A DNA stretch of 64,000 bases, taken from Buxus sempervirens. Its lineage: Eukaryota; Streptophyta; Magnoliopsida; Buxales; Buxaceae. The stretch lies in NCBI GenBank assembly GCA_947561395.2, contig OX387187.1, positions 21,867,829-21,931,828 of the forward strand, written 5' to 3'. The notes under the pieces were generated by a model. It saw only the letters and a list, made by a program, of their open reading frames with translations. It was not told the origin of the DNA and made no database searches. Positions 20,289 to 46,862 of the stretch are shown here, in pieces; position 1 is the first letter of the stretch, and each line of letters begins with the position of its first letter. Both the position numbers and the translations under genes were made by a program.

Positions 20289-20309
20289 AACCACATATAC
20301 GGTGCGGTC
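20289..20309. repeat. AACCGC-type dyad in the LTR fragment
   Basis: AACCAC-N9-GCGGTC. It occupies the place where the 31803 LTR has its TATCCGG dyads, although the two LTRs are otherwise the same family. Confidence 0.6.
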
Positions 20310-22162
20310 GGGGTAGAACCGTAGAACCAATGTGTGAGACATGGAAATGTCATCTAAGATGACTTCCGATATCGTCACGCGGGGATTGATAAAAATAGAG
20401 AGTCACCACCATTCAAGTTAAAGTGTGAATGGACACCAAAGGGATCATAAAAAGTAAATAGAGCCAAAGTAACTCTAAATGAAGGAAAAATTCAGAGATC
20501 AGGTAAGGGGAATTAGTTATTAGTGGGGGAAGGTGTTAGGCACCCCCACTCATCCGTCTAAGACAGTTGCTACATGCTTGCTCATGCTAAGGATTGCTTG
20601 CTAATCCAAATAGACAAATGATGCTTAAAAGTAAGCAAAATGTATGTGATTATTCCACATGAGTAGTCCAACGAATTTAGACTGTCATCATGGATATATC
20701 ACTTTAGAACTTCATGAGTGAAGGAAAATCCAAGTAAAATTTGAAGATAAACCAAGTTCAGGCAAATCTGGAAAAATCAGATTATAAGAACATGAAAGCT
20801 TCGATTAACCACAAATCACTCAATTTAAATTCAAATCCAATGAAACCAAAGCCATTTGAAGACTAGCATGAAGTAGAACATTTAGTAAAAAAATCAGCTC
20901 AATCCGATTTAAAATAAAAGAGAAACACTCTATGGAAATCTGTTGTTGTAACTCAGAAAAAGCGACGAGAAAGTATTTTCAAAACCTTATTCGTGGAATT
21001 TGGCTCCATATAAATTCATGAAAATTTGCATGGATGAAGTATGTAGTGCCATCTTTCAAATGAAATAAGCCTCATACAAAACTCCATCTAGATGTGACTT
21101 GTGTCTGCTCTTGAACAGGCCTTGAAGACCACAGATTAGCTCAGGACTATGCCATTGAACAGCTCTGAGTCAATCAAGTACACAGGCCACAAATCAGATC
21201 AAAATCTGTTGAAACCAATTGGAAATGCAAATAGATTCCTCAAGGAAAACACAGAAACTAAAATCACTCAAAACGGATTAAAATTGAGCAAATTGTGCAC
21301 CATCAAAGCGGCAAGTTCAGCAATCTGGGCTGAACTGACTTATAGACTTTGAACAGATGTTGTAAAAAATTGGCACCATAAAAATGAACAAAAATTTCCA
21401 GATACAAACTAGACATGCTCATCTATCACATGTCTTTGGAATCACTCAAAAATTCATCCGGAGGATGAAATTATAAGCATTCTAAGACATGCCACAGATG
21501 CTGCCCTGTTTTGAAGATTTTTGAAGAAAAAGCCAAAACTAGTGCATGTGTGCAAGTGGATTCGACCAAAACACTTGGAAATCAAGAAAAACAATCTCAT
21601 GAAGTTCTAAAATTCATTCTAAAGCCAATAATCTCAGATTTCCCGTATTAAATATAGAAATCCAAGATCTATCTTATCCTTGCAAAAAATGGTGAAAAGT
21701 GTGCTTGGTGGTGATGGAAATCAAATTTTCTAGGAGAAGGCTGGAATCCATTGCTATTGAGAGCAAGGATTCGCACGTCCTCTCCAGAGACAAATGTATA
21801 ATACATCAAGAAATCAACCATAGGCTCAAAATAACCAAAAAGCATGCTCTTCATCATTTGTAGGTTCTAAGCTTTTTCCATTCCACCATCTTTTTCCCCA
21901 GGTTCTCTCTTCACGTTTTACGGCTAGAGAGAATTCCCAGGTACTTTAGATGAGGTTTGGGGCTACAAAAACAATACTCGGAGCCTTACACTACAGAAAG
22001 GTAGAAGTTGGGAGTTGGAATTGTAAAGAAGAATACTAGAAAGCTAAATAGAGCTTTACCTTGGTAGCTTGAGCTTTGAGTAGACAATCCAGCAGAGTAT
22101 CCCTTCTTCTTGCAGAGCTCCAATGCTTCAAATTGCCAGCCATTTGCAAGAGGAGGACCCCT

Positions 22163-22172
22163 CTATTTATAG
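22163..22172 (-). promoter_or_regulatory. TATA box of the element A LTR
   Basis: CTATAAATAG on the minus strand. The first dyad upstream begins 202 bp away, exactly as in the 310-2122 LTR. Confidence 0.7.
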
Positions 22173-22373
22173 GCACAGCCAAGGGCAATAAAGTCCCAAG
22201 GGTATGCCCAAAAATCCCTCTAGATTGTTCCAATTCAAGTTAAAGCCTTGAATTGATGTAAATCTAGAGGTTTCGAAGGGTAAAACAGGGAGTTCAAGTC
22301 CCTGAGAGAGAGGTAATATGCGTAAATAAGGCTCAGAGATCGAGCCTTTTTTGCAAATCCCCGAAACAATCAA

Positions 22374-22641
22374 AACCGCGTACACAGTGCGATTTCCACA
22401 GAACCATCACTCTAAATGCGGTTTTTATGCAAATTCACCTCAACCGCACATACAAGGCGGTTCCAATTCAGTTACGCTTGTCATGATTGCTGTCGACATG
22501 GCTCAATGGCCAAAACTTCTAGAAGCCACGTGGCAGCTCACGCAAGAAGCATGAACCTCAACCGTTCTGTGTGTGTGGTCGCAACCACACATACAGGGCG
22601 GTTGAGACCAGATTCCCAAAAACCGTATATTCAGTGCGGTT
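22374..22641. repeat. U3 dyad cluster of element A, AACCGC type (six copies)
   Basis: Inverted repeats with 6-bp arms start at 22374, 22402, 22442, 22560, 22583 and 22621. The spacers are 9 bp in all but the second, which has 10. The arms vary around AACCGC/GCGGTT. The best copy is 22442-22462, AACCGC-N9-GCGGTT. Confidence 0.8.
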
Positions 22642-22754
22642 AGCACCATTTTTGAGTATTTTTGAGTGTTTGACACATGTCAAAGCTCAAATAAAACATT
22701 TAAAATTCATTTTGACTGTTATCTCATATTGAAGTGCAATTTGGGGTGTCTACA

Positions 22755-22768
22755 ACTGCCCCCTTTTC
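22755..22768 (-). other. Polypurine tract of element A
   Basis: On the minus strand GAAAAGGGGGCAGT directly precedes the LTR start TGTAGACAC. This is the plus-strand primer for reverse transcription. Confidence 0.85.
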
Positions 22769-23141
22769 GTTGGAATTAGAATCAATTAACAGCGGAGAGC
22801 AAAAAGACCCGCAAATTGCGCTTCCCAAGATTATGTCCATTCAATCATGACTTGCAAGAACTCCAAAATGTGATTTTTTTGGAAAAAGAATTTGTTTAGA
22901 AGATCTGCTGAAAAGTCCCTAACCTTAAGGGGCAAATCCTCTTCTCGCGTCTCACAGAGCACTCGTGGCTATGAAGTGAGATTTGAGCAAATTTTTAAAA
23001 CAAACGTTGATAGGGTGGTGTTTCTCGCAATTCACAACTATCTTGGACACAAGCCTCTTGGAAAAGAATGGAAAAAGTTTTGAAAATCCATTGTTTGGTG
23101 CTAACTGTACTGAACATGCAGTTTTTGACAATTTCAATATC

Positions 23142-23180
23142 AACCGCTCTGTCTGTGCGGTTCTCTAGGTTGCATATAAA
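23142..23180 (+). promoter_or_regulatory. Promoter of the antisense PMD gene in element A: dyad plus TATA box
   Basis: A perfect AACCGC-N9-GCGGTT dyad (23142-23162) is followed 12 bp later by TATAAA at 23175-23180. A GC-rich leader and a splice donor (ACACAG then GTAAGTGG, exon end 23526) come next. Element B shows the same order at 42242-42279. Confidence 0.65.
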
Positions 23181-23189
23181 CGCGACCAC

Positions 23190-24461
23190 AACAGGCTTCA
23201 CTTTGTTCACAAAAACCCTCGCCCTTCAAAGCTTGCCGTTTGCTCTTGCGACCGTAGTCTTATTCCGGTCCTCGATCGATCTTCTTCTCTGGCGAAGTCA
23301 CTCTCTCTCCGATGACTTCTGCTTTTCCAGTGGTTCTTCCACTCTCCAGCGTCTACTAGCTCAGTGGCAAGAGCTTTCGGCAAGTGGTCTGCTCTCATCT
23401 CGTCGATTTTTCCACTGTGGCCGAGAATCCTTCTCCTCCTTAACTTCAATCGACTGCTTTCGAAATTCCGGTGAGGTCAAGTCTCCATTTTTCTTGCAAG
23501 AGAAACTTAGATTTCGCCTAACACAGGTAAGTGGCTGAACCCTTGTCTTTACTTGCAAACAGTCAGTCCGAAAGTTTTGTACCTTGATTATATGATTGCA
23601 TGAGCTTAATTCATGTCCGAATTTGATTTTTTGCCCTTGATTTACTGCATTGGTTGCTTTGTTGTCAATGGGATAAAATCCCCAATTTTGCATGTGCCCA
23701 TTGCCTGTATTGATCTGAACTCAACCATGACTAGTATTACTTAGATTTACGGGATGATTTTGGTTATTTGCTCTTGCATTTTTTTATCACTTGAGCATTC
23801 GGTGTGTCCAATCACAACATACTTCAACACCAATTTTTCTGAATGTTGGCTATTTTCCGAACATGTTCTGAATTATTGACAGGATTTCATTGGTTCTGTT
23901 TTGTCAATATTTAATTTGATCTGAACACTCGGATGTCTAGTATAAATTGCTCTTGGACCCAATTGATGTGACACCCTATTAGAATGAATAGGATTGAACC
24001 TAGTTTGACACTCCCAGTTAGCTTGAATTCCGCTTTGACTATCCCTTTTACTAGCTTCCCTCTGTAAACCTGAAAAGTAGAACACATTTAACAGTTTAGG
24101 GCTTTAGGCAATTTGTAAACTTATCAGAATTCTAAAATTGAAAATGAATTGAAAATTCTGAATAGCTTGCTTCAAAAACCTTTCTTTCTTTCCTTTTGTT
24201 TTTTTGTTTATAAGAAGGATATATAGGAAATTTTGTTTCTTATATATAACAGAAATAATAAAGAAATTAATAAAGAATAAAAGACATCAAATCCTAGTTC
24301 GGCCGGGCACTTTCTGAGGTGTCTCTACCGATTTCCTTTTTCCTGTAAACCAAGTAGAATTGATTAGTCTAAAGAACAGCAAAATTAACTGAAACCTGAA
24401 AGCAAATAGAATGAATTGGCGATAAAACATAATGAATTTCTCCCCGCAATTGGTCTTGTAG
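23190..24461 (+). other. 5' leader exon and intron of the antisense PMD gene, element A
   Basis: The leader exon runs from about 23200 to 23526, and the intron from 23527 to 24461, ending in TTGTAG right at the ATG. Element B has the same layout, with the acceptor TGTGTAG immediately before its ATG at 43603. The open frame of 156 codons across the leader is not conserved in B, so I treat it as non-coding. Confidence 0.55.
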
Positions 24462-27266
24462 ATGGCTCGCACACGTCGCGCTTCTCGGGGCCCTGCCGAT
24501 GAACCTTCCTCTTCGAGGGTTCGGAGGGACCCGGCCGATGTGGCATCTTCTTCTAGGGCCGAGCAGGACCATGATCCTTCTTCTCCCAGCAGTCTGGAGG
24601 CTTCAGATTCAGATTCTGGAGCATTTGGGGGTTCGCAGGAGCTGACCCTGGAGGTATTCTCTCTTCTTTTCAAAACCAGGCCTTCCCTTACAACCTTTAA
24701 CCTGACCTTATCATGTTTGCATTTTTAGCCTACTATCGAGGTTCAAGGTCGCAGCGGGGCTCGCCGTAGAGGTAGGGCAGAGGCCCGGGCGGCTCGAGTT
24801 GCTATGCCTGCTGGGATAGCAGATCAGATCCAAGACACCCCTCTTCTTCACGATCTGAGGACGCATCCTTTAGCGGGCATCAGGGCTGACATTCCCCTTG
24901 TCTACCCGTCCTCCCATTATCGCGAGAGCTGGGCTCTTTTTGCCGAGACAATGGCTAGATGTTCGACTCCTTTGCGTCAAGAGATGGGCCGTTTTGGGTT
25001 CGGCCCCTTCATCACCATCACCAGCGTTCGTCAGGATCGACCTCTGATAGCGGCCATGATGGAGCGGTTTTTTCCAGAGACCCTGAGCTTCCATTTGCCT
25101 GATGTAGAGATTAGGATTTGTCCTTCTGACTTTGCTCTCATTACTGGGATCAGGATGACTGGAGATGTCATCACTGAGTTGGATAGGCCAGCTGATTCGG
25201 AGATTGCCAAGCTTTTAGGATATGATGAGATGTCGGTGGAGGCTTGGGACAGGAGTAGGATCACCCACATTTCCCGGACTTGGTTGAGGGAGACCTTCAT
25301 GGATGAGGGAAATAGCACCGTGGCAGCGGAACATCCCATCTTCCTAGTGGCCTTCCGCTTCCTCTTTCTCTTGATGATGGGGTCGTGCTTCTGCTTGGAG
25401 GATACCACCTCAGTCAGTCCTCACTTCTTGAGTCTTCTTAGGGATTTACCTCAAGCAAGGGACTATGCCTGGGGTCAGCTCATCTACGGCACCCTTTTAG
25501 CGAGTCTGCGTCGAGTGGTCTCTGTCCTGTCCTCTCCCAAAGGGGCTGGGGTTGGTTGTAGGTTTTTCTGGCCCTTTCTGCAGGTATAAATTCATTTCTC
25601 TTTTTCTTTTCTTTTTTCTCTTTTCTTCTCTTTTTTTTTTTCCTTTTCTCTTCTTTTTTTTTCTTATCTTCACTTTCTTTTCTTTCTCTATCAGTTCTTC
25701 GCTTGGGTCTATGTGGCCCATTTTCGGCCGACCTCCACATTGCCTGAGGGGACATTCCCTGTGGCCCACAGATGGAGTCAGATTAGGCGCGACTCAGAGA
25801 AGAGTCGCCCTAGGTCAGCCAGGGCTCACCTGGACAGGACCTTTAGGAGAGAGGTAAATACTTTCCTTTTATTCTTATTTTCTCGTTTCCTTTTTTCAAG
25901 AATCTGACATTCATCTTTGTTTATTTTCAGCTATCTGTACCCCGTCTAGATGGCCTTCATGATGAGTTGGCTTTTCAGACATTCGTGGACGAGGCGTTCG
26001 CTCTAGATCAGCGACGTCAGAGGTACCCATTCTTTATCGGGCAGCTGGGTAGCATATGGTACCTCAGCGAGCGCTTCTACTTCCAGCACATCGGCAAGCT
26101 CCGGATCCCCGTGGCTCCTCCAGATACAGCACCTGTCACCCCTCCTGGTCCATTTGATCCAGCCCATTTTGGTGATTGGGTGGCTGGAGATACACTTTTA
26201 GCCGAGGGTGACTATGATGCCTGGTTCGAGCAGCTCTCAGTGGGTTGTCTTATGCAGCCCATGCCCGTTCAAGGTGGAGTTACCGAGATCGGAGGGGTGG
26301 TGATCCGCCTATATGATACCACGGTATAAATCTCCTCCTGCTCCACTCTTTTTAGTTTCTTCCTTGTTTGAAATTATTCATATCCTTTTCTTCTCATTTC
26401 AGGAGGAACAGTTAGGGGAGATCCGAGCTAGGTATGCGGATCTAGAGCATCAGCTGGCGGAGAGAGATGCTGCTATAGCTGAGAGCGACATCATCATCAC
26501 TGGGCAGGCCGCTCTTATTGCTGATTTGCAGGCTCAGCGGCCAGTGCTCAGGACCAGGCAGGGCCTTTAGGAGTTCAGGTCATCCTTCTATCCTTTTCAA
26601 CTTCTACTTTTTATCTTTTATATTTTCTGCTTCTTATCAGGCTTTTTCCGTTTTCAGGAGGATGTGGCAGCTTCACCATCCAGCTCCCGTACCCTATCTC
26701 TTTCTGTAGAGGCTGTAGAGATTCCGGAGAGAGATCCAGAGATAGTGGCAGAGGCTACTTTGGCAGCCGTTCCAGAGCCAGCTAAACTGCCAAAGGTTAC
26801 CTCTATGCCTGAGAGTGCTCCTGAGCCAGAGACTGCTTAGCTAGAGGAGGATCCTGTGATTGCCACTGAGCCAGAGGAGGGTGGTCTTGAGGTTTCTGCG
26901 ATCCCTGAGGCAGCTGAGCCTGCGATGGAGGAGGATGTGCATGATGCACCCGAGCCTGAGGTGGTAGAGGTTCATGAGGCAGCAGACCCCATAGACATTG
27001 ATTCATCTCCCGCTGCTGAGGATTCTCGGATTCTGGGTCTAGTCCCCTTGGCGACAGATATCTCCTTTTCTCGTTTCATGGATCTTACCCATGATGGTCC
27101 GGACAATCCAGTTCAAGCCCCTTCTGTTGAGCCGGCGCCTCCAGTCGAGTTACCTCCTACAACTGGTCCCTCTACTCTTGCCGACCCATCTTCTCCTGCC
27201 AGCCCACATTTCTCAAATCATTTTTTTATCCGACGACGACGACGAGGCGGAGGCGGTGGGGATTGA
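24462..27266 (+). pseudogene. Antisense accessory gene A1: plant mobile domain (PMD)-like protein, six exons
   Basis: Exons: 24462-24653, 24729-25583, 25695-25853, 25931-26323, 26403 to about 26556, and 26658-27266. The first four are each a whole number of codons. Exon 1 is a short Arg/Ser-rich N-terminus (MARTRRASRGPAD). Exon 2 holds the PMD-like core: a Trp-containing helix (YRESWALF), FGPFI, MERFFPETLSFHLPDVEIRI, then DFALITGIRMTGDVI. Exon 5 is a coiled coil (EIRARYADLEHQLAERDAA). Exon 6 is acidic and proline-rich and ends in a basic tail (FIRRRRRGG). PMD proteins (MAIN/MAIL1 family) affect transposon silencing in plants and are often carried by transposons. Two lesions are visible. The donor after exon 5 is GG where copy B has GT, and a TAG sits at 26838-26840. 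It lies antisense between DUF7745 gene A2 and the LTR. Confidence 0.72.
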
Positions 27267-27500
27267 CCTGTAGGAGATAGATTTAGATTAGGATTTTTTT
27301 CCTTTCTATATCCGACACTTTGATATATAAAAAATGATGTATCCATTTGCATTTGTATGTAAAAGAGAAAATTATTCATTTTTGCTTCTTTTCATTTATT
27401 TTCTTACTTCTTATCATGATATAACTGCTATACAGGTAACAAGTATTTTTGGAAACATGACTTATTAAAAGAAAAAGGAAAAAACTATTTTTGTGCAAAA

Positions 27501-27618
27501 AACCGTACATACAGGGCGGTTGTTCCAGAACCGCACTTGTCCCGCGGTTTTTAAACTCCGCGGAAATGCAACCGCACATTGGGTGCGGTTCAGGCACAAC
27601 CATTCTGAGTATGCGATT
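27501..27618. repeat. Dyad cluster upstream of antisense gene A2, AACCGC type (four copies)
   Basis: Starts are 27501, 27529, 27570 and 27598, all with 9-bp spacers and steps of 28, 41 and 28 bp. Three copies are complementary over both arms apart from G-T-type mismatches; the fourth is degenerate (AACCAT/GCGATT). A TTTAAA motif follows at 27635-27640 and the ATG at 27749. Confidence 0.8.
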
Positions 27619-27748
27619 TTTGCCCTTTCGTGATTTTAAAGCCCCGAATCGCGGGAAAAACGTCACTTTGACGTATTGCTTAGGTCAGAAACCCCCTTTT
27701 CGGTGATTTTCTCTCTCCTAGATACCTTTAATCCACTTTTGACCATTA

Positions 27749-29401
27749 ATGGCCTCTGATTCAGCTTCTGTGCCTTCTTCATCCTCTGTACCTGAAACAT
27801 CAGCACCTAGACCAACCATTAGATCCAAACCTCCAAATCTGACAAGGTATGACATTGTAGATGCCTGCTATGAGAAATGGGTTGACTCAATGACCCATCA
27901 AGACAAAATAGATTGGGACTTTACCAATCTAGGCTACATCCTCTCACTCCCAAAGGTTTCCCTAAAATGGGAAATCATAAAGGCATTGATTAGGCATTGG
28001 GAACCCCAATTAAACCTTTTCAGGTTTGGGGAGAAGGAGATGACCCCTACAGTCGAAGAGGTTGAAACCATCCTCAATACTAGGTTCTCCAAAAAGGTAG
28101 TCAACCCACCTCTCAAACCAAGCTTCAAAAAGGAAGCCTCTACTTTTTTAGGAATTGGCAAGAAAGAGCTAGGGGCAGCTGATGCTCTATTGACCCTATC
28201 AAAGTCATTTTTGACTGAAAAGCTATTGAATAGCTCGAACTAGCCGGCCCAGTTTAATGCTTTGACCTTGATAGTGGTCAACCAACTTTTATTCCCCCGA
28301 GATGATAGAGAGGTTGATTTATCCCTCATTTCAGTCATTTACCAAGTTAGGGAGCGTGAAAGGCTTGCCCCTATGATCCTGGCTGAAATATACCAGGCCG
28401 TGACGGACTGCTATCATCAGAAGAAGAAGAGTTTCCTCGCCTGCGCCCCTATCCTTCAGGTAAAATCTGAACCTCTTTCTTGAATTACAGTTTTCATTGT
28501 AAAATTGAAATTTTCTAAATTGAAAGTGCTTCCCTTTTCTTTGCAGCTCTGGCTTTTGGATCATCTGTCTCAGGTGGAGGAGTTAGACCGACACTTCGCC
28601 CGGAACATGGATGTTCCCCTTTTGATGAACAATCGGGGCTGTCCTTCTATCCCTGGGGGCAAGAGGGGGTGGTTTGTCTTCTTAGGGACGCTCCAGGATG
28701 ACCAGGTGAGATGGCCTGGTACTTATCAGCCTTCTGCCGAGACGGTGATCAGCTTCCCAGATCGGAATTTTGCTGTGCTCATGGGCTTGAGGTCTGCCTT
28801 GCTTTATTTGCCTTTGAGAGTCATCCGGCAATTCAGAGAGGAGGCTCAGGGGATCCTGGTACCTCAGGGCTACGAGGAGTTCATTGGCCCTCTCACACCG
28901 GCCACCATGGGCCTGTGCTATCGTCTGATGAAGGAATGGTCTCATGCTTGCTTCTTGAGTGGTCCTGTCTTATCCAAATTGCATAAGAAGGACTACCTCT
29001 TCTGGATTAGGGAAAAGGCACAGAGTTGTGTTTCTATACCAGTGGATCCCTCTGCTATCCCGTGTCCTACCTACGAGGATCTTCTGGAGACTGAGAGGGC
29101 TTCTCATAGGCGGCTCCAGCACATATGGATAGAAGAGGCCCGAGCCATGAGACTGGAGAAGGAAGACTTGGAGAGACGGCTCGCAGAGCAAATACGGACC
29201 CGTCGCTTCGAGGTTAGAGCTGCATGGCGTAGGCATGATGAGACCATGGCCAGGCTCAGAGATATGAGGACCAGACAGACCCTCTCAGATGATGTCATTT
29301 CCTTCCTCAGCGACCCGGATGCAGAGGGGGCTGAGAGGCTTGTCGTGGTTCAGGCAGCTCGGATTAAAGAGCTCGAGGAGAGGCTAGGGGATAAAGATTA
29401 G
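27749..29401 (+). pseudogene. Antisense accessory gene A2: DUF7745/PMD-like protein, two exons
   Basis: Exons 27749-28459 and 28547-29401, 237 and 285 codons, with a clean GT-AG intron. The N-terminus is Ser/Pro-rich, then KPPNLTRYD, WDFTNLGYILSLPKV, IIKALIRHWEPQLNLFRFG and EKEMTPTVEEVETIL. This is the pattern of the plant DUF7745 family, itself PMD-like and frequent in transposons; that assignment is from memory. Exon 2 has GWFVFLGTLQDDQVRWPGTY and ends in a long charged coiled coil (about residues 430-520). A single TAG at 28241-28243 replaces the codon that is AAG (Lys) in copy B. It is convergent with the gypsy integrase end at 30456 and tandem with gene A1. Biochemical role unknown. Confidence 0.75.
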
Positions 29402-30455
29402 CCCCTTTATTGTATTTTTTTTCCTTTTTTACACTTTTGTACAAAGAGAAACTCCATTAATGGAAAGACAAGGAATACAAAAATAGATTTTTATACTATT
29501 GGCCTCAGAACTCTCATATGCTTGTAAAAACTGACAGTTTAATGAAAAGTCATTGATTTCTCATCATCGGCCAAAATATAATTTTCCTTTTTTATGTATT
29601 TTGTTGTAAATTGGTCCATGATGCTTTAATCACATATAGTTTGATGAATAAAAGTAAGTTGGGCAAAAAGGGTATTTTAAATAATAGGGAAGAATCCATT
29701 CCGTCGACCTTTGGACCTTTAGACTCATCCCCAAATTCTATTCCCATCTCCAGGGATCATGCCAGTGCTTACTGGTTCAGTCCTGTGCTGAAAATCTGCT
29801 TAACTCCAATCTGCTGCTCAAAACCGTGCATTCAGACCGGTTCAGCCAAAAACCGCCTTTAATATGCGGTTGCCTGACCTTTCTGCCAAAACCGTATGAA
29901 CAATGCAGTTTGGACCAATCTGTACCCATATTGCGGTTTTTGACCTTTTTCTGTTTTTTTTTCTTTTGTTCTTCTTTTTCTAGCCAATATTGCCCCTAGT
30001 GCCTGTTATGGTTTTCACTAGGGCCGGCTCATTTGCTCCGTCATTGCAAATCCAACTCCGAAAGTTGAAGGGATACACTAAGATCACCGAGGGCTTGATC
30101 AATAGGACGAAATAAAGGCTAGGTTAAGTTTATGAAAGAAAAGTTATTATAGGCTCAAAATTTTGATATTTTGAAATAGGACAACTGGGCTTACAGTCAT
30201 GATGGATATGACCCCAACTCCCAAAATTTGCCCTCTTTCTCTCCTTTTGTATTTGGCTTTCATCTGCCACATTATTTTTCTTCTTCTCTTTTTCTTTATT
30301 TTTTCCCCTATTGGCTTTGCCCCAATTGCAACTGTAAGCCCCAGTTTGGGTTCTTAAAAAAAACATGAACAGGCTCAACTTGGTTAGGCTAGATATTTTA
30401 AAATTTTTGAGGGATAAAGAAAAATGACCTCGGATAATTTCCTAGTGATATTCTT
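29402..30455. other. Spacer between the convergent A2 gene and pol
   Basis: No coding frame. It holds three AACCGC-type dyads (29822, 29851 and 29890) and a block at about 29975-30120 that is also conserved in element B (49090-49240). Within the block CCCTAGTG (29994-30001) and CACTAGGG (30016-30023) form a stem. The block lies where the two opposing transcripts would end. Confidence 0.6.
29822..29910. repeat. Dyads downstream of antisense gene A2, AACCGC type (three copies)
   Basis: AACCGT-N9-CCGGTT at 29822, AACCGC-N9-GCGGTT at 29851 and AACCGT-N9-GCAGTT at 29890. The steps are 29 and 39 bp. Confidence 0.75.
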
Positions 30456-32158: not shown

Positions 32159-32705
32159 TGGGCCCCGTTGGAAGGCCCAACCGGTGTCCTGAATGGGCTT
32201 GAGTTGGCCCGTGTGTCCTTGTGGGCCTCGGCCTATCCTAGGAGGCCCTGTGGGCTTTGGTTAATGTATTGACTTTACATGGGGGTTCAAGTTGGATTAT
32301 TAAGTTATTTTCATGTAGGCAGTGGGCCGGATTGGTTTGTGGGCCCCTTAGGAAGGCCCACCTGGTGGCCAAGTGATTTTCTGTTATCTCATTTTTAGTC
32401 TTGCCAAAGTGGGCTGGTCACTGGGCTTGGGGCCCATGATCCAGGTTTCGGGCTTTGAAAACCCAGTGCTTCAAAGTTTAGGGTTTGCACCCTAACTTGG
32501 TTCGGTTAGCGGGCTTTGGCGGGCCCGGCAGGCCATAACCCATGGTCTCGGCCAAACCAGGCAGTTTATACATTCACTCATATCACAAGGTACGGGCGGG
32601 CCGCATTGGGCTTGGCCCGTCCGGTTCAATCGGTTCATTTTATTTTAATTGTTCAATTAGCATGCTTTGGTTCATTGGGCTTGGTGGGCCCCGTTGGAAG
32701 GCCCA
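32159..32705. repeat. TGGGCC-type dyads in LTR C (three copies)
   Basis: TGGGCC-N9-GGCCCA at 32159-32179, 32340-32360 and 32685-32705, each with perfect 6-bp arms and a 9-bp spacer. Confidence 0.75.
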
Positions 32706-32851
32706 CTAATGTGCCAAGTTGGACCGGTTGGTCCAAGTCCCGCCTTGGGTTTCCGGGTGGCCCGGAATCCCTGCTGGTTCGTTGGTTTATACACAAATTA
32801 TCCACAATTCGGCAGGGGATCAGCAATATGCAAAAATCAAGCTTCTGTGTG

Positions 32852-32952
32852 TATCCGGCAACTCAGGCCGGATACACAGAGTCTGTGGGTGATCCGGCTA
32901 GTGTGGCCGGATACCCAGAGGCCATAGGTGATCCGGCCTGAGTATCCGGATC
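32852..32952. repeat. TATCCGG-type dyads in LTR C, 39-bp phase (three copies)
   Basis: Starts are 32852, 32891 and 32930, exactly 39 bp apart, 7-9-7. The third has GATCCGG/CCGGATC, changed at both arms so that pairing is kept. Confidence 0.85.
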
Positions 32953-33965
32953 ACTCTGGAATTGGCCTTTTTGGGGTTTTGGCCTTTTGGGACTGATCCC
33001 AGGGGGTTCCAGGGACATGTTAAGGGTCTTGTGGGCTCCTGGATGAGCCCACGTAGGTTCAGAATTGGGAGAAGCCACACTTGGCTTCTCCCCTTGGATT
33101 TACAGCAAGGTAAGGGGGCCTTGGGGAAGGGGATCATTCTTTCATGCATGCATTCACATATAGCATATTCACATGGACAGATTTTCGAATAATGAAGACA
33201 GTAACTATCCTGTCATGGAAGGCCTAGTCTAATACGTAACATACACAACAGTAGATAATGACCCATATGGCTCTACCATGCATATCGCCATGCGTGCAAG
33301 AGAAAACACGAAGAAGATAAAACAACAGCAAAGTCTAGAGCTCTAGTCCCATGCTTAAAACAAGAAGGAGGCGCCGTAAGAAGGGAAAGAGAAGGGGGCT
33401 TATCCTGGGGGGTACATTAGATGAGCGGGGAGGGACATTCTCCTCCCCGAGATAATTACAACAGCATATTAAGTATGGCATTTTACTAAGCGTGCATGGT
33501 TCCTTAAGAGGCCTACGTGGGTATCATACATGAGGTGACTCCATGCCACGATAGGAAGACCAAGTGCGTGCATATAACGTGCTAAAACTAGGCCATGCAA
33601 AGCAAGAAGACAAAGAGCAGAAGAAATTCCAGAAAATTCTACATTTAATATATGTTGAAGCTAACGTGATGAGGAGTGATACCTGAGGGTTCTTAGAGCC
33701 TGGAGCAAACTGGAGGTACCTCCTGGAGGCTGGACAGCCGCTGGAACAGCTCCTTCACTCAGCAACAGCGGTGGCTTCCCTCCTTGTTGGGTTGTGGATG
33801 GGGATGAAGGAGGAAGAGGAGGACGAGAAAGGCTTGGATGGTGTGGAGAAGGGATGGGGTGCCAAAAGAGCTTGAAAAGGGAAGGATTCGAGTGGGAGTG
33901 GGTGAGGGAGGAGAGCTTAAAAATCGCATGAACAATGGCCAACCCCGGATATGAGCTGCTGTTAG

Positions 33966-33975
33966 CTATTTATAG
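33966..33975 (-). promoter_or_regulatory. TATA box of LTR C
   Basis: CTATAAATAG on the minus strand, 11 bp from the nearest TATCCGG dyad (33987-34009). Confidence 0.7.
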
Positions 33976-33986
33976 AAATTTTAATG

Positions 33987-34230
33987 TATCCGGCAACTCA
34001 GGCCGGATATACCAAGCCCCATTTGTATCCGGACTCAAAGTCCGGATACACTAGCTTCCCTTTGTATCCGGTCTTCAAGTCCGGATACAAGACATGATCA
34101 TTCGAAAATTAAATGCCGCCGCGAATTTGTCGGGCGATCGGCGCGGATCTCGCGCGAATATCTTGATGTATCCGGTCCTCAAGTCCGGCCATGAAGAATA
34201 GGCAGTGTATCCGGTATATGTGACCGGATA
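33987..34230. repeat. U3 dyad array of LTR C, TATCCGG type (five copies)
   Basis: Starts are 33987, 34026, 34065, 34169 and 34208. Steps within the two groups are 39 bp. All have 9-bp spacers of differing sequence, and only the fourth has an imperfect right arm. Confidence 0.85.
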
Positions 34231-38600: not shown

Positions 38601-38813
38601 TTAGTCGACAATATTGAATTCACTCTTCTTCAATATTTTTAAGAGGTCTGCTGCCTCATCCGTGACGACCTGGGGGGTGTCTTCCCCTATCTTGGCTTTC
38701 CCCTTCTGATTCTTCTCTGCCTCTTTCCTTTCCTTTTCTGATTCTTGCTCTTTTCCCAACACATCTTCCTGATCTCGTCATGAGATTTACCTCTTTTTGG
38801 CTCTGATTCCTGG

Positions 38814-39564
38814 TCACTGGGTAGTAGTTGTAAAACCCTCGCTGTAGTTCCAAGGTACAGCAGTTTCTGAGTAAGAGGGTTTAGGAACATTGAACATCAG
38901 AGGCTGAAGATGAGATCTTGGTGCAGGAGTTGATGTGGGAGTAGGGTTGGAAGGAGGCACCTCAATGACCAGAGGCGGGAGTTGCCTTGATTCCCTTGAT
39001 TGAGAGGATTTTAAGGTCGATGAAGAAACAGAGGTGATTGATGCCGTGGTGAGGTCATAATTAATGACCAAAGGTGGTTTAGATGATGGAGTGGGTGGAG
39101 AAGCAACAGTTTGGTTGCAGTTAATAATAAGAGGGGGTTTGGACACATTAAGTTGGGTCATGAGAGAAGCAGCCCAGTTTAAAAAGGCATTAATGTCCTC
39201 TGCAGTCTTGCCATTTCCTTTATTTCCTGAAATGACATTAATCTGTTCCTCTATCTCTTCTTGGTCAAAATAGACCTTAACGGACGTCCCTATAGGCACA
39301 ATCAATTGCGAGGGATCAAATGTCCTAGGTCTTGAAGAGACAGCCCCCACAAAATTGGATGGGCCTGCCCCATTATGCTGGGGTAGAGGATTCTGCCCAA
39401 TGTCAGTCCTGGCGGGAGAGGGAGCAGCCGTGTTAAACAACAGGGGCTTCTGATCGATCAAATCCTAAATGGCATGCTTTAATGGCCAGCACCTGTTTGT
39501 AGGGTGTCCTGGTGCACCCATATGGTATTCACAGGTGGTTGAGGGATCAAAGTTCTTCCCCTTT
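38814..39564 (-). pseudogene. Gag C-terminal remnant of element A
   Basis: It begins at the junction with element B (KGKNFDP...) and includes a zinc-knuckle-like CEYHMGAPGHPTNRC. A stop follows, then the Pro/Ser-rich IDQKPLLFNTAAPSPA region and QLIVPIGTSVKVYFDQEE. It matches the gag of element B (about 54760-55560) closely. The upstream half is not in the window. Confidence 0.85.
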
Positions 39565-41633
39565 TGTGAGACACAGGAAAAATCACCGGGATGATTTCAC
39601 CTCCGTCAGCACACGGGCTCAACGCAAAATTGGGAGAGTCGCCACCATTCAAAATTTTGGGGTGTGAATGGACACCAAAAAGTTCAAAAATAAGCAAAAA
39701 TAGCTAAAAGGCAAATTCTAGAGTAAAAATAACTCTACTTGAAAATCAAATCCAGAGATGGGTAAGGGGATTAGATTATGAACGGGAGAAGGTGTTAGGC
39801 ACCCCCATTCACCCACACAAGGTGGTTGCCATGTGTTTGTTCATGCAAAAAAGATAAGAAAGCTTGCTAAAAATCATTAAAAACATTGGAAAAGAATTAA
39901 GCCAATGTGTGATATTTTCACATGAGGAATCCAAATGGATTCTAGATCCTCTTTTATGTCAATATCACTTCTGGAATATCAACAAAAATGGAAATCCAAA
40001 GCAAAAGTTGCACAAAACCAAGTTGAGTTAAAATCGGAAAATTCGGTGAAAAGTAATGCCATTTGTCTTGAAATCATTCAAAATCAATTTTAAATTAAAT
40101 CAAACCAAATCAATTTGAAAGATCATGGTAAATAAGAGACTCATGCAAAATTTCAAGTAAATCCGGTTGAAATCCTAGGATTTATGCTCCTTTAAAGTTG
40201 CTGCTGGGGAAAATCAAAAGTGAGAAGCATGCAAGTTTGGAAACTCACCTAGAAAAATCCACTCAATAAAAATCCACGAAATTTGGTGTGATTGAAGTCT
40301 GTATGGCCATTTTCGAATGAAACTAGCCTCATACAAAGATTCATTCGGATGTGCCTTGGGTGGTCTCCCGAACAGGCCCCGAAGATCATAGATTTACCCA
40401 GAAAAGTACTGATGAGCAGCTCTGGGTAAATCTGTTACCAATAATACAAATGCAGTCCAAAAATTATGAAACCAACTGGATTTGAAAATAGACTCATAAA
40501 TGAGTGCCCAGAAACAAAAATCACTCGAATCGGACTTAAAACGAACACATGGCGCTCCATCGAAGTGACAAGTTCCGTATTTAAACCTGAACTGTCCAAT
40601 CAACTTCGACAGAGAGGTGTCAAAATTCCGCTTGATAGAAAATAATGAAATTTGGTAGGCCTAAACTAGACAGCCTCACCTTTCCCATGGTTCTAGAATC
40701 ACTCCAAAATTCATCCGGACGATGAAGTTATGAGTGTCCGAAGTCGGGGTACAGTTGCTGTCAAGTTAGGCCTTATTTGAAGAAAAACAATTCAAAACTG
40801 TGACAAAGTGTGTGCAATTCGTGCAAGATGAATCCAAATCTTTTAAAAACCTTTTAAAAACATTCCAAAATTGATTGAGGCCATTTATTTCAGATTTATC
40901 ACAATAAATGTAATAAACCCAAAATATGAGCCTATCCCGCCAAAAGGGGTGCAATGTATGTGTAAGTGAAAATCATTCAAGAACAACATAGCATGCATTC
41001 TCATTCATTTAAAATAGGGTTCTAAAAGCAACCTAGGGTTCCGTTCCATTATCGTTTCCCTTAGTTCTCTCTCCCCGTTAAACACGGTTCTTCAAGATAA
41101 TCTTGGGGTACTTTGAATATGAAACGGTTTTCAATCATTCAAAATGCTTTATTCTAAATAGGTTCTAGTACTAGGGTCAATCCCCAGTCTCGTTTCTCCT
41201 AGATCCCGTCTTCACGTTTTACGGCTAGGGGGAGTCTTGAGATACTTTGAGCCGGGGAAGGATTTTCATACACACAAAAAGGCCTTATTCTACAGAAAGG
41301 TAGAAGAAGAGATCTAGATCTAGAAATGTAAAATAGAAAATAAAGAAGAGGTTTGAGGCTTACCTGGGGTTCTGGAAGCAATCCGGCGGCGGTTGCCTTC
41401 TTCACTCAAAGCTCTTGGATCTCCAACTTATTGGCAAGAGAATTAATGGCCATTTGCTTAAGGAGGAGCCTCCTATTTATAGGCAAAGGCTAGGGTTAGG
41501 GTTGGTGAGAATGGTAGATACAACATAATGTCTATAACCCACCAACCTTAACCCTAAGGCCATTTCCGAGATTTCCACTCATTTAATGAGGGATATGATT
41601 GTAAAAGTGAAAAGCTCTCGGAAAACCCTAATT
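39565..41633 (-). repeat. 3' LTR of element B, inner end truncated (about 2.07 kb)
   Basis: It begins TGTGAGACACAGG at 39565 and shares the family blocks (GTCGCCACCATTCAA, GGTGTTAGGCACCCC, CGTTTTACGGCTAGGGGG). The TATA box is at 41482-41473. The expected GTGTCTACA end and polypurine tract are absent. Near 41634 the sequence goes directly into an AGACAAGCCCAAATTGCACT segment that belongs to the internal region. A deletion has removed the U3 end, probably including its dyads. Confidence 0.75.
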
Positions 41634-42202
41634 TTTAGACAAGCCCAAATTGCACTCCCTTAACCTTGATTTGCTTGGTTCAATTCAATTTTGTAAAAAT
41701 AATTTTTAGGTGAAGATTTGCCAAAAAGCCCTAACTTTAAGGGGGCATTTCTCCATGAATTCTTACATTCCACTGAGCTCTCGTGGCTATGAAGTGGATT
41801 TTAAGCCCAAAAATATGATTTTTTGAAAACTGATTCTTTATCAAACCGAGTTGAAAATTGAGTGGATATCTTCCTTTTTGACCAACACATTTCACAAAGT
41901 TGTCCTAAATTCCACCGAGCTCTCGTGGCTGTGAAGTGGATTTTAAGGCAAAAATAGGATTTTGTGAGAAAACAGCTAACTTTGCAGCGCATTTCTTTTT
42001 TCTCCTCCTTTCTTTTTTTCTTTTTCTTTTTTTTTCTTTTCTTTTTTTTTCTTTTTCTCTTTTTTTTTTTCTTTTCTTTTTTTTTCTTTCTTTTTTTTTT
42101 CTTTTCTTTATCTCATTTTTCTCTTTTTTCTTGTTTTTTTTTTTCTTTTTTTTCTTTTTTTTCTGTTTTTTTCTTTTTTTTTCTGTTTTTTTCTTTTTTT
42201 TG
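41634..42202. other. Element B internal region with long polypyrimidine tract
   Basis: Homologous to 22805-23100 of element A: both carry GAGC(A/T)CTCGTGGCTATGAAGT, and B has two copies (near 41773 and 41915). From about 41995 to 42200 it is nearly pure T/C. Antisense reading of that tract gives a lysine-rich open frame, which I regard as an artefact. Confidence 0.7.
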
Positions 42203-42279
42203 TATCCAGCATGTTTAGCCGAATAAGAATGAGCTTGCTTGTATCCGGCCTGATTCACCGGATACACCTGCTTATAAAA
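42203..42279 (+). promoter_or_regulatory. Promoter of the antisense PMD gene in element B: two dyads plus TATA box
   Basis: A degenerate TATCCAG-N9-CCGAATA dyad (42203) and a perfect TATCCGG-N9-CCGGATA dyad (42242-42264) lie 39 bp apart. TATAAAA follows at 42273-42279, only 8 bp after the second. A GC-rich leader exon follows, with a probable donor at 42629 (GTAAGG). Confidence 0.7.
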
Positions 42280-43602
42280 GTCGTGCGCGACCGCGACTTT
42301 TCCTCTTCTTTTCTCCTTCTCCGTTTGCAAACCCCGGCTACATCTCCTTCCTTCTTCGACGACCGACGATCCTCCTTTGTTCTCCGGCCATTTCCGACGA
42401 CTTCTACTGTTTCCGGCAACTCCTTGAGCTCCGGCGACACCTATTGACGCCGGGCGACACTCACTCCCTACTGCGACCGAGCCCTATTCCTCACTGTTCG
42501 TCTACGACTCTTGGATTCTGGCCATCTCATTGCTCCTCCGGCGGCTGGCATTGACTCCGGCACCCTTGCTTCTGCTCGACAACTTCGCCCACATTCCAGC
42601 GACTCCTTGCTTCACTGTCCATCAAACAGTAAGGGTACCTCTGCATTCTTCCATCAGAAAAAAAATTTCTTGAATACCGAATTGCAAAAAAATTTTTTTT
42701 TTGTGTGAATTGTTGTTGATTGCACATGGTTGCTTGCTTCTCCACGCAAGCAGGATTATTGAACACACTTGAAATTTTCAGAATGTTCCTTTGCGATTGT
42801 ATCCTTGGATGAATTATTTTTGGCTTGATTGATGCCGAATTTTCAGACTTAATGTCATGCCATTTGCTGTGCCATGTGCTCTGTTTTGCCAATTTCTGCT
42901 ATGACTCCTGATGACCATGATTTGCTTCCTAGTATCCTAGAACTTGGGATTGCCTGCCAGTGGTATTTTTTTTTTTTTTTGAACTGCTAATTGTATGTTG
43001 GATTTCCTTTATCCTTGGCTTGGTATTCCTAAACTTGATCCAATCTTCTGCAATTCTTTAAGATTGACCGACTGGTGCATGATTTTTTTTAGATGGTATG
43101 CTACTGATACCATGTTGCAGTTTTCTCGAATCATGCTGCAATTTTTTCTTGACTGGAATTCTGCTTTTTATACCATGCTGCAATTTTTTCTTTTGACTGG
43201 AATTCTGATTCTTATACCATGCTGCAATTTTTCTTTTGACTTGAAATGCGGGGATTTATTCCTTTTTCCTTCATTCCGCCTAGTATTTGGATTAATGCGG
43301 CATTCCAACTGCCGGAACCATTCCGTGATTGGTTATTGGATTCCACCGTTTGTTTCAATCAGCTAAAGCCCATAGCAGTCCTGAAATCAATTAGCAGATA
43401 TTAGGCTTTGTACATATCCTTAGGACAGGAAGCTGTAGAACCAGAACAAAATAAAACCTTGAATAGCAATAGAGAACAAAAAATAAATGCAACTTCCCTT
43501 AGAACACAATTTTGACAAATCATGTAAGATTAAATGTGAGATGGAAACTAGACCGGAAGCAGAATAAAATTTCTGAAATTCTTAAAACACTTCCCTGTGT
43601 AG

Positions 43603-46501
43603 ATGGCTAGGAGTCGTTCTCGCGTTCGAGAGGAGGCTGACCCTGCTGATCAGCCCTCTACTTCGCGGGCTCGGACAGAGGCGAGTTCCAGCGCCACCCT
43701 GTCGGAGCCACTAGATGTCTCCAGGGAGAGCTCTGCTGAGGGCTCTGCTGAGGTAGGCTTTCACATTCTTCTCTTCCCTCCTTCTATTTCCTTCCTACAC
43801 AAATTTTATATTTTCCTTTTGGGATTTTAGCCCGTGGTTGCTCCTGCTCGTGGTCGGGGCAGAGGCCGAGGACGTGGCAGAGCCAGAGGTGCAACGCAGG
43901 ATCCTGTTATTGGAGGCGATGCTAGGGGATTCCGTTTGTCCTTCCCTGCGGATTTGAGGGCATCTGTTCAGGACACCGAGCTTCTCATTGGGTTGGATCA
44001 TCATCCATCGATGTGTGTCCGAGCAGATCTTCCTCTTTGGTATCCCTCTTCTCATCTGAGAGGTAGTTGGGGGAGGTTTTGTGAGCTGTATCAGACCCTA
44101 TCTCCCAAACTCAGACGGGAGTTTCGCAGGTGCCGTTTTGACCACTTCCTGCTCATTCCATCCTTCTGAGCTGATCGCCCTCTTATCTTCGCCATGCTGG
44201 AGCGGTACTTCCCCGATACGCAGACTTTTCATCTGCCAGAGGTTGAGCTAGGGATTCGTCCGTCAAATTTTGTTATGCTCACCGGCATCCCTTTGACGGG
44301 TAGGACCATAGAGATGGAGCGTCCTCCTGTTGCAGACGTTGGCACCCTGCTTGGGTATGAGGACCTTCCCGCGGCTGCCTGGGATGGTAGGAGTGGGTGG
44401 ATTTCCATTAGCTGGTTACGCAGCAGTATCACTGATCACCCCGACAGGAGGCATACGACTATTGCTGAGGCTGATGGCGATTTCCTCCCTCTATTTCGAC
44501 GAGTATTCCTGCTGATGCTGGGCAGCTGCTTTTTCCAGGAGGACACGACGTCAGTCAGTCCTATTTTCCTGGATGTCCTGAGGGATCTTAGGCAGACCAG
44601 GTGACTAGCTTGGGGTCGGTTGATATACGGGACTATATTAGCCGGACTGAGTCGAGTCGTCCGAGGTATGGCCGCTGCGAGGGGAGATGGTATCAGCTGC
44701 CAATTTTTCTGGCAGATTCTACAGGTATGGACCATTTGGACTTAATCCCTTGAATTTCTTTTATTCCCTTCTGACTTGTTTTCTTTCTTTGCCAGATATT
44801 CATGTATTCATACATGACCTACTTCCGCCCTTCTCCCATGCCTGGTGTTACAGAGTTTCCTGTAGCTGTACTGTGGTCGGTCTTGGACAGAGATGCAGAT
44901 CGGAGCCAGCCACGATCAGCCCGAGCGCATTTGGACCGTTCTCGCCGTTCTGAGGTACTTTTCTCTTCCTTCAATACCCTCCTTTCCTTTATACTACCTT
45001 GCATCTGACACTTTTCCTTGTGATTGTAGCTGATACTGGCCCGTTTTGAGGACGTGGATGACGAGGTTGCTCGTCAGGAGATGGTACAGGACACTTTTGA
45101 GCGGAATGTACGGCGCCAATCCTACCAGTGTTTCATTGGGAGACTTGGTAGGATTGTATACCTAGGCGAGCGCCTGTACTTCCAGCACAATGGCGCTCCT
45201 CGTATCCCAGTTCCTCCACCACCCGTTGACCTTGCCGTCCTCCTGCCCGGATTTGACGAGGCCCAGTTTGATCAATGGGAGGATGCAAAGTTACTCACCG
45301 TGGCTGGTGATTATGACGAGTGGATCCAGAGAGTGTCCATTGGATGCTTGATGGATCGACCCACTCGTGCCGGGGTGACTGAAATCGGCGGGATCTGTAT
45401 CCGGGTCCATGATGACACAGTAAGTTCCATGACTCTCATTTTCCATGTCCTTTCCTTCCCTTCTGTATTTCTGACCCCAATTCTGTTCTTATTGGCAGGT
45501 ACATGAGTTGAATACTATTCGGGACCGGTTCGAGAGCCAGCGGGCCGCGATCTATGATATGATCGCCGAGCATGACGAGGTCGTGGCCCAGAGGGATGCC
45601 CGGATCAGAGAGTTGGAGGCTCTGGTTGCTGAGCTCCAGACTAGACAGGTATCCGGTTCTTCATAGTTTTCATCTGTTTTAATTTCCATGTTTCTGCTAT
45701 TTTGATATGAACTGTTTAGCTTTTGCAGGACCCAGTCCCAGATCAGGCTGCTGCTTTCGAGCCAGATTTCCTTGTCCCTGATCCATCTCCAGTTTGGGCT
45801 ACTGATCCTGTGGATGTCCCGGCTGCTGATCCGGTGGTAGCTGCTCCTGCGGATCCCGTGGCAGACACCCTCGGTAAGTTTAGCTTTACTTCTCTGGTTT
45901 ATCTTCATATTTCAATTTCTGACTTTTTCTATTGATCTAGATATTTCAGTTCCTAGTCCTTCTGCTGATGTTGCCGAGCCTTCTGGGGCTGCAGGAGTTG
46001 AGACTATCGTGGCCGAGGATTCGGCTGCACCTGAGGTAGCTCCCTTGCCTGCTGAGCCTGTTCTTGTTGGCCCTTCATCCCCTGTGGCGGTCCCTGATTC
46101 CGCTCCTGAGGTCCTTGGTAAGTTTTTTTTTTAGTTTCATCTCTTTGATTCATTTGGATACCTCAATTTCTTATCTCTCTTCTGTTGGCCCAGCTACCTC
46201 TACTCCTGGCCCTTCTTCTGATGCTGCTGGGCCTTCTGGATCTGCAGGAGCTGAGGCTGCCGTGGCTGGGGATCCAGTTGAGCCCATTCCTGCTGAGCCC
46301 GGGGCCTCTTCCCCAGATTCTGCTCCTGATCCGCCTCCTGACCTTTCAGAGTATTGCTTGGAGTATCAGATCCAGCGAGTTGTGGGTCGGCTCCCTCGCC
46401 ATGCTGCCGAGCGTATTCTCGCATACTCTAGGCGCCGATCACCTAGAGGTAGAGGTCGCAGAGGAGGACGGGGCAGAGGACGCCGAGGAGATCCTGCATA
46501 G
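43603..46501 (+). pseudogene. Antisense accessory gene B1: PMD-like protein, eight exons
   Basis: Exons: 43603-43752, 43831-44724, 44796-44954, 45030-45419, 45499-45648, 45729-45873, 45941-46117 and 46194-46501, all GT-AG with consistent phases. Exon 3 is 159 nt, exactly as in A1. Exon 2 has the PMD-like core (LRGSWGRF, MLERYFPDTQTFHLPEVELGI, NFVMLTGIPLTGRTI). Exon 5 is a coiled coil. Exons 6-8 are Pro/Ala/Asp-rich low complexity with a repeated GPSSDAAGPSG-like unit. The C-terminus is an Arg/Gly-rich RGRGRRGGRGRGRR tail, suggesting nucleic-acid binding. Stops lie at 44167-44169 (CGA to TGA) and near 44602. The leader intron ends directly at the ATG (TGTGTAG). Confidence 0.75.
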
Positions 46502-46702
46502 GAGTAGTAGATTAGGATTTCACTTTTTCCTTATCATTTGTACAAACACAATTTATATATATGAAAAGGAATTTTTATTCATTCTCTCTTATCTAGCTCT
46601 CTTTTCTTTTCAATTTCATGTAATTATGACTTGTATACAGGTAAAACAGGTAAAAATTTTGGATTTTTTTCCATTCTCTCTTTTTTTTGCAATTTTTCTT
46701 TG

Positions 46703-46862
46703 TATCCTGCATATCAGACTGGATACATTGATTGTTCTTTGTATCCGGCATAACATGCCGGATACACATGGTCCCCTTTGTATCCGGCATACTTAACCGG
46801 ATATGAATAGAACCTTTTATATCCGATCTGAGTTGCCGGATACATTAAAAGATGTTATAAAT
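46703..46862 (+). promoter_or_regulatory. Promoter of antisense gene B2: four phased TATCCGG dyads plus TATA box
   Basis: Dyads start at 46703, 46742, 46781 and 46820, exactly 39 bp apart, each 7-9-7. The first and last have one or two arm mismatches. TTATAAAT follows at 46855-46862, 12 bp after the last dyad; the ATG is at 46973. Confidence 0.8.

Follow-up and report, generated by a model that had tools for sequence, protein, structure and literature searches.

The closest described system is that of the VANC proteins of VANDAL (MULE) DNA transposons in Arabidopsis, whose target motifs are YAGTATTAY for VANC21 and AGTTGTCC/AGTTGTAC for VANC6. Here we analysed a stretch of 64,000 nucleotides from Buxus sempervirens (assembly GCA_947561395.2, contig OX387187.1, positions 21,867,829 to 21,931,828 of the forward strand), called the window below. 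It carries short inverted repeats with a 9-bp spacer (dyads) in noncoding parts of Ty3/gypsy elements with long terminal repeats (LTRs), which are named element A, element B, LTR C and a solo LTR. As in VANC/VANDAL, the motifs are short and family-specific, stand in tandem noncoding arrays that look tandemly duplicated, and differ between related families. A reader encoded by the element would be a further likeness, and here it is only proposed. Unlike the VANDAL motifs, the dyads belong to LTR retrotransposons and not to DNA transposons, and they form palindromes whose geometry is constant and whose core is common to all, whereas the motifs there lie in the same orientation. The candidate readers are PMD and DUF7745 proteins here and DUF1985/DUF287 proteins there.

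Two groups of retrotransposons are also comparable. PMD genes of the clades PMD-A1 and PMD-A2 lie inside Ty3/gypsy elements (Ikeda et al. 2017, PMC5418596), and the likeness to our elements is at that level; the available part of that account describes proteins and phylogeny but no cis sites. The PMD-fold gene of elements A and B is antisense to gag-pol, as in PMD-carrying Ty3/gypsy (Tat-like) elements. The gene23 elements have antisense genes at the same place, gene23 has its own promoter, and nuclear location or DNA binding has been proposed for such antisense products; unlike in our elements, a TRP28 domain is named there (available texts of PMC7264820 and PMC11963269). The term 'inverted repeat' is absent from these two available texts, 'hairpin' is absent from the first (searched there only), and 'palindrom' appears in PMC11963269 in the reference list only. 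A third comparison is the DOWN motif of MAIN/MAIL1-dependent Arabidopsis genes, which reads CATGCAGTTT in the MORC1 promoter and is genetically linked to PMD proteins, as far as the available text of PMC9899485 goes. The half-site of element A is one change away from it (ATGCGGTT versus ATGCAGTT), and the right arm of one dyad in the window (23103-23123) reads the MORC1 form itself. In contrast to our dyads, DOWN is a single site, and its direct binding by PMD proteins is putative. The resemblance is a lead only and could be due to chance. No description of sites like ours was found in the literature by title and abstract opening, in a coverage without bioRxiv preprints and most subscription papers.

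The dyad pattern holds for three arm types, AACCGC, TATCCGG and GCCCGT, and is far beyond chance. The whole genome was searched (676.5 Mb; the matches listed are the first places, on contig C1). AACCGC-N9-GCGGTT occurs 6,478 times, while uniform chance gives about 40 at N9, and the same arms occur 57 times at N0-8 together and 654 times at N10-30 together. In the N10-30 set, 24 of the 50 matches listed have N10 and are mostly ACTTTGAGTG-like or its complement; such an N10 site is also present in the fetched A-type LTR stretches. TATCCGG-N{0,30}-CCGGATA occurs 28,817 times (58 for the reversed-pattern control, about 78 by uniform chance), and the spacer is N9 in 90 of the 92 matches listed, counted by eye. 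For GCCCGT/ACGGGC the count is 15,285, with about 1,250 expected by uniform chance and 4,244 for a control that is not clean, since many of these dyads are also matched by TGCCCG...CGGGCA; N9 is found in 46 of the 50 matches listed. The 9-bp spacer, which an earlier note on this DNA had put forward, is therefore dominant genome-wide for AACCGC and, among the matches listed, for the other two arms, and not one of an even spread. The same note had called the spacer sequence unconstrained, and this did not hold. The GCCCGT spacers listed often resemble AYTTSAART and are close to palindromic, and among AACCGC spacers a ACATACAG-like sequence or its reverse comes back repeatedly. When distinct spacers were compared (40 of TATCCGG, 25 of AACCGC), symmetry beyond the arms was not clear. 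The largest excess was at the TATCCGG spacer ends (0.53 versus 0.41 expected) and at outward position 4 (0.47 versus 0.33), and complementarity of the AACCGC spacer pairs 3-7 and 4-6 was below expectation.

When the arms AACCGC, G[AT]CCGC/GACCGC, GCCCGT and TATCCGG were aligned at their inner edges, all of them placed CCG and CGG 11 bp apart. This CCG-N11-CGG core occurs 31 times in the window, compared with a mean of 2.0 and a maximum of 7 in resamples (n=200). Each of two related LTRs has three copies, and no other spacing occurs more than once there. Since the core is shared across arm types, the arm code consists of the bases around CCG. The proposal that arms are element-specific is thus correct in that they differ by family, but they are not unrelated, as AACCGC, GCCCGT, GACCGC and TATCCGG have the core in common.

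In the window, arm pairs at N9 were scanned with at most 2 mismatches. There are 13 AACCGC dyads (one, 25049, inside the PMD frame), 14 TATCCGG dyads, 5 GCCCGT dyads (one, 20075, outside the array) and 10 TGGGCC inverted repeats, 5 of which are the repeats meant by the earlier note. Its count of about 37 is reproduced as 12 + 14 + 4 + 5 = 35, plus an N10 site (22404) and three N9 dyads with 3 mismatches (22560, 23103, 27598). Perfect TATCCGG pairs number 8 at N9, and the only others are 6 at spacer 48 (39 + 9, from neighbours); perfect AACCGC pairs number 5 at N9, 1 at 38 and 1 at 50. Counting dyads whose 6-mer arm recurs at least 4 times at one spacer gave 19 at N9, whereas all 20 Markov resamples scored 0 at every spacer. 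The same score gave 4 at spacer 7, 15 at 11, 11 at 13, 11 at 15, 4 at 16, 5 at 18 and 4 at 38. Most of this non-9 recurrence is the same TATCCGG dyads seen via shifted or neighbouring arms, and spacers 11, 13 and 15 additionally contain TTGGAA, TTTGGA and GATTAA.

The dyads and the genes and promoters next to them are located in the window as follows.

308..2120, minus strand: solo LTR of the GCCCGT family, whose LTR occurs in pairs elsewhere
1709..1714, minus strand: TATA box of the solo LTR (TCTATAAATAG), about 200 bp downstream of the nearest dyad
1916..2019, no strand: U3 array of the solo LTR, 4 G[CA]CCGY-N9 dyads (1916, 1944, 1971, 1999), 27-28-bp period
20333..22750, minus strand: LTR of element A, whose gag-pol is on the minus strand; position of the right end approximate
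22166..22171, minus strand: TATA box of the element A LTR (CCTATAAATAG), gag-pol strand, some 200 bp beyond its nearest dyad
22374..22641: U3 array of the element A LTR, AACCGC-type N9 dyads 22374, 22442, 22560 (3 mismatches), 22583 and 22621, and N10 dyad 22404
23103..23162: site before the PMD-like gene of element A, AACTGT-N9-GCAGTT (23103) and AACCGC-N9-GCGGTT (23142)
23175..23180, plus strand: TATA box before the PMD gene of element A, 12 bp after the 23142 dyad
24462..25586, plus strand: first open pieces of the antisense PMD-like gene of element A (Pfam PMD 2.5e-16; weak DUF1985 0.087-0.11)
27501..27618: array before the DUF7745-like gene of element A, AACCGC-type dyads 27501, 27529, 27570 and 27598 (3 mismatches)
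27749..29398, plus strand: antisense DUF7745-like gene of element A, open pieces 27749-28240 and 28484-29398 in the same frame, with stops between
29822..29910: AACCGC-type dyads 29822, 29851 and 29890 of element A, between DUF7745 and pol
32852..32954: first array of LTR C, 3 TATCCGG/GATCCGG dyads with a 39-bp period, including the doubly changed GATCCGG/CCGGATC
33987..34230: second array of LTR C, TATCCGG dyads 33987, 34026, 34065, 34169 and 34208
42203..42264: site before the PMD-like gene of element B, TATCCGG dyads 42203 (2 mismatches) and 42242
42273..42278, plus strand: TATA box (CTTATAAAAG) before the PMD gene of element B, 8 bp after the 42242 dyad
43603..44601, plus strand: open pieces of the antisense PMD-like gene of element B (Pfam PMD 4.7e-07 on 44170-44601)
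46703..46842: array before the DUF7745-like gene of element B, TATCCGG dyads 46703, 46742, 46781 and 46820, 39-bp period
46856..46861, plus strand: TATA box (GTTATAAATG) before the DUF7745 gene of element B, 13 bp after the array
46973..48648, plus strand: antisense DUF7745-like gene of element B, open pieces 46973-47683, 47737-48324 and 48400-48648, ends inferred

Elements A and B are related. In both, gag-pol matches the minus strand, and the plus strand carries two antisense genes: a PMD-like one and a DUF7745-like one that also scores as PMD. In profile searches the PMD and DUF7745 matches were on the plus strand, and RVT_1, G-patch and a sub-cut-off gag match were on the minus strand. The pieces of the element A PMD-like gene gave 146 scored genome matches with 81-100% identity. 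The dyads of the solo LTR and of element A occupy the same position within homologous LTRs, and the GCCCGT array at 1916-2019, with N9 and the CCG-N11-CGG core, belongs with the others as had been suggested. Similarly, the arrays before DUF7745 are at homologous positions in A (27501-27618) and B (46703-46842) and have different arms. Of the 6 antisense-gene arrays examined, 4 (A PMD, B PMD, B DUF7745 and L106 DUF7745) are followed by a strict TATA box at a distance of 8-22 bp; none was found past the A and L111 DUF7745 arrays. Two of the 3 LTR arrays (A and solo) have a TATA box on the gag-pol strand some 200 bp beyond their nearest dyad; the stretch with the third, L061, did not reach far enough. 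No strict TATA box was found after the leader array of a B relative or after the 29822 site. The dyad-TATA arrangements occur on both strands. An apparently full-length relative of B has matching LTR arrays at C1:3409339 and 3429750, and it has two further kinds of site, four-dyad arrays in U3 and an array before gag. Relative to L061 (600-901), the window's B has a 302-bp gap at 41636-41638, at the internal/LTR junction, which includes the relative's U3 dyad array.

The arms are better conserved than the bases between them. The cleaner test is on four GCCCGT arrays that were selected via DUF7745 (L106-L109). Variable columns were 3 of 60 in arms, 15 of 45 in spacers, 15 of 27 in linkers and 70 of 289 in the flank; Fisher's test of arms versus spacer plus linker gave 5.5e-07, with columns that are not independent. 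In the B-type LTR and DUF7745 arrays, variability was 0.005-0.036 for arms, 0.165-0.219 for spacers and linkers and 0.088-0.089 for flanks. The arrays L062-L101 were selected through perfect dyads, so their conservation values are inflated. Arms mostly decay one side at a time. Double changes are GATCCGG/CCGGATC (32930), TAACCGG/CCGGTTA in three copies, which are probably one event, and AACTGT/GCAGTT (23103). Of the paired arm changes that the earlier note described, GATCCGG/CCGGATC was seen, while CGGGCC/GGCCCG (19874) belongs to the excluded TGGGCC class (see below).

To relate arm type to the linked gene, loci were chosen on DUF7745 homology and without regard to dyads; 20 of 118 listed loci were picked, and the analysis covered 10 of these. 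Dyads were upstream of the gene in 6 of 6 A/B-type DUF7745 loci, with GCCCGT arms at L106-L109, AACCGC at L110 and G[AT]CCGC at L111; L110 and L111 have one perfect core each and their remaining dyads are decayed. The CCG-N11-CGG core was upstream in 0 of the 4 fetched loci of a second DUF7745 clade (L102-L105), whose open frames run for about 450-500 amino acids through the domain. An unrooted tree built from 11 DUF7745 stretches separates the arm types into groups of their own. DUF7745 identity is 84-93%, 90-99% and 89% within arm groups and 68-80% between groups; winA, winB, L035, L037 and L060 in this comparison are not dyad-blind. The suggestion that arm type would track the linked gene is thus borne out for DUF7745 in 11 genes with four arm types, together with linkage in one GCCCGT-family element. 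The family of the GCCCGT solo LTR has LTR pairs 19.4-19.8 kb apart elsewhere, and the pair at C14:11628217-11649496 encloses a stretch 100% identical to L106, with DUF7745 and the GCCCGT array. In one apparently full-length B-type element, the LTR, leader, inner and DUF7745-upstream arrays are all of TATCCGG type. There was one arm type per family wherever at least two site classes were seen (AACCGC, TATCCGG, GCCCGT), and the motif differs between related families and is enriched, in tandem arrays, in the noncoding regions of its own family. These data give modest support to the idea that arm type follows DUF7745 clade in four families. For PMD, the 30 best-scoring loci of 117 listed (Pfam; L005-L034) have no perfect dyad with these arms in their 1.5-kb flanks.

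In conclusion, one group of Ty3/gypsy families has the CCG-N11-CGG core with family-specific bases, in arrays in the LTR U3 and before the antisense PMD-like and DUF7745-like genes. We suggest, with a probability of roughly 0.55, that the dyads are promoter-proximal palindromic protein-binding sites, whose predicted reader would be an element-encoded dimer comparable to VANC. An element-encoded reader is likely, since each family has arms of its own on a constant geometry. The dimer would bind the two half-sites, and would most likely be one of the two antisense PMD-fold proteins with coiled-coil-like ends. Binding may activate promoters, or protect them from silencing, in the element and its near relatives alone, and joint change of arm and reader would keep families apart. 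The full version, a private self-recognising system in which an antisense PMD-fold dimer on family-coded CCG-N11-CGG palindromes activates or unsilences its own family and in which code and protein codiverge, is proposed tentatively, with odds we put well short of even.

Sites for strict VANC-type anti-silencing, with methylation loss on binding, would be a finer version of this proposal and compatible with it. Such targets share the layout of short family-specific motifs in tandem noncoding arrays (available text of PMC5735166), the core carries CG and CHG cytosines, and captured PMD proteins were earlier speculated to act in MULE anti-silencing (available text of PMC5418596). The PMD exon gave a nearly full-length weak match to DUF1985, the VANC domain (best E 0.087, 12.9-13.2 bits), and 5 of 8 PMD copies matched it at E up to 2. 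This is far below the cut-off of 35.1. DUF1985 was absent from all of 8 DUF7745 pieces searched with Pfam, where PMD matched (L111 was excluded for a stop), and its 3 weak genome matches are all under the cut-off. The VANC21 motifs are moreover in the same orientation and not palindromes (available text of PMC5735166). The VANC analogy of the earlier note is therefore kept for the layout, while homology goes no further than the weak PMD exon-DUF1985 hint with none in DUF7745, and strict anti-silencing is a possible but doubtful refinement. Both antisense genes have coiled-coil-like pieces with weak Pfam matches, among them piece 48400-48648 of element B, and protein database searches gave no relative with an E of 0.001 or lower.

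It is common for LTR promoters to rely on host factors. Host transcription factors of one structural class may thus bind the sites as exploited enhancers, different families having recruited different factors. The promoter-proximal position of the sites, with TATA boxes, agrees with this, and domain searches found no DNA-binding domain in the PMD-like or DUF7745-like protein. However, the bases around the shared geometry differ by family at several sites together and in step with DUF7745, which a shared host factor would not impose, and we regard host factors as rather unlikely readers. The arrays could also be functionless by-products of tandem duplication in a hypervariable region, with inherited spacing. 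The 39-bp and about 28-bp periods fit such an origin, as do spacers shared by descent among copies within a family. But arms are fixed within arrays in which spacers and linkers differ, the irregularly spaced dyads of the A LTR keep N9, and different arms in related families keep CCG-N11-CGG, which makes duplication alone an improbable explanation. Folding into RNA hairpins in transcripts would be possible for arms of 6-10 bp with a 9-nt loop, and a few paired changes exist. We compared 122 A-type dyads with at most 2 mismatches (two lie inside the PMD frame; L096, without orientation, was left out). At pairs 1-5, single-arm changes were G-U-compatible on one strand in 9 cases and on the other in 16, 5 were neither and 0 were compensated. 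The innermost pair 6 is strand-biased (T:G 47 versus C:A 9) in the direction that a hairpin on the antisense-gene strand could give, and this weighs against a DNA site. Its two sides nevertheless vary independently (C:G 59, T:A 5; Fisher p = 0.58, a count that shared descent inflates), so the bias comes without covariation. In addition, several of the arrays that precede a gene are located before its TATA box, and no Rfam family matches window 20000-47000. Because the changes at pairs 1-5 lack the RNA pattern and the sites are upstream of TATA boxes, DNA half-sites are favoured. Between the two possibilities of the earlier note, a dimeric DNA-binding factor fits better, and the hairpin is quite improbable.

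Several other results weigh against the dyad observation or against protein-binding sites read by an element-encoded dimer. Besides the missing DNA-binding domain, solved structures gave no convincing relative of either protein. Arm-blind perfect 6-bp inverted repeats in the window have no peak at 9 (40, 42 and 40 at spacers 9, 4 and 11, respectively), and pooled loci at arm lengths 6, 7 and 8 have none either. A general excess of 9-bp spacers is ruled out by these counts, and the claim depends on recurrent arms alone. One site of the element A LTR has N10 (22404) and not N9, and the window's B copy has no LTR array and lacks 302 bp of L061. For the A family the conservation contrast is small, with a variability of 0.094-0.101 in arms, 0.159 in the spacer and 0.209 in the linker (0.107-0.148 with perfect dyads masked), and the A-type columns before DUF7745, where L110 alone is dyad-blind, were variable in 8 of 48 arm, 10 of 36 spacer and 13 of 34 linker positions. 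Flanks of the dyad-chosen B arrays are less variable than the spacers, so part of the contrast there is due to fast spacers. The 6 of 6 loci with upstream dyads cover three families, and four of the six are close copies. Among the matches listed, 1 of 40 GCCCGT-type DUF7745 genes is enclosed by one of the LTR pairs listed, and neither list is complete.

TGGGCC, which the earlier note counted as an arm type of LTR C and the 19509 fragment, was excluded from the system.

32159..32706, no strand: TGGGCC inverted repeats from the window scans (32159, 32339, 32684), also at 19873 and 20118

Its spacers are spread genome-wide and a single spacer sequence occurs at N9. In the 50 matches listed, the spacer is 9 in 24, 6 in 7, 8 in 7, 11 in 4 and 28 in 4, and 10, 18, 25 and 30 once each. 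The N9 spacer is CCRTTGGAR or its complement in 10 of the 10 readable among the matches listed; in the window, the spacers at 32339 (CCTTAGGAA) and 20118 (CGATTGGAG) depart slightly from it. The genome count of 24,860 stands against a high control of 13,168.

Some further repeats were observed. CGCCAA-N9-TTGGCG, a reversed control, occurs 794 times genome-wide at N9 versus 340 at N0-8 and 506 at N10-30, and may be a further class of dyads with a 9-bp spacer. At C1:480155-4678944 there are several inverted repeats of the AACCGCCGG...CCGGCGGTT kind, with 16-22 bp between AACCGC arms, which are probably an unrelated repeat family. In the window, an inverted arrangement spans 5837-13436, in which 6568-6844 matches 12429-12707 and 8594-9026 matches 10248-10680 on opposite strands, and the same 9-bp arms with a 9-bp spacer are found at 5837 and 13410. 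A 74-bp tandem repeat of about 7 copies (57060-57599) overlaps the gag-like open frame of element B (56152-57579).

Retrotransposon PMD proteins have relatives in MAIN and MAIL1, which act in silencing in the host. If the proposal is true, retroelements would possess a VANC-like system that uses a palindromic code; this would give a function to gypsy PMD proteins and let sister families live in one genome without cross-talk. Since the sites are family-specific, of fixed geometry and near promoters, the function of the antisense genes is directly testable. The sites predict which families would cross-react and which would not, and their code changes form a natural series in which protein-DNA coevolution can be studied. 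With 28,817 TATCCGG pairs (0-30 bp) and 6,478 AACCGC dyads in one genome, many loci could be within reach of such a factor.

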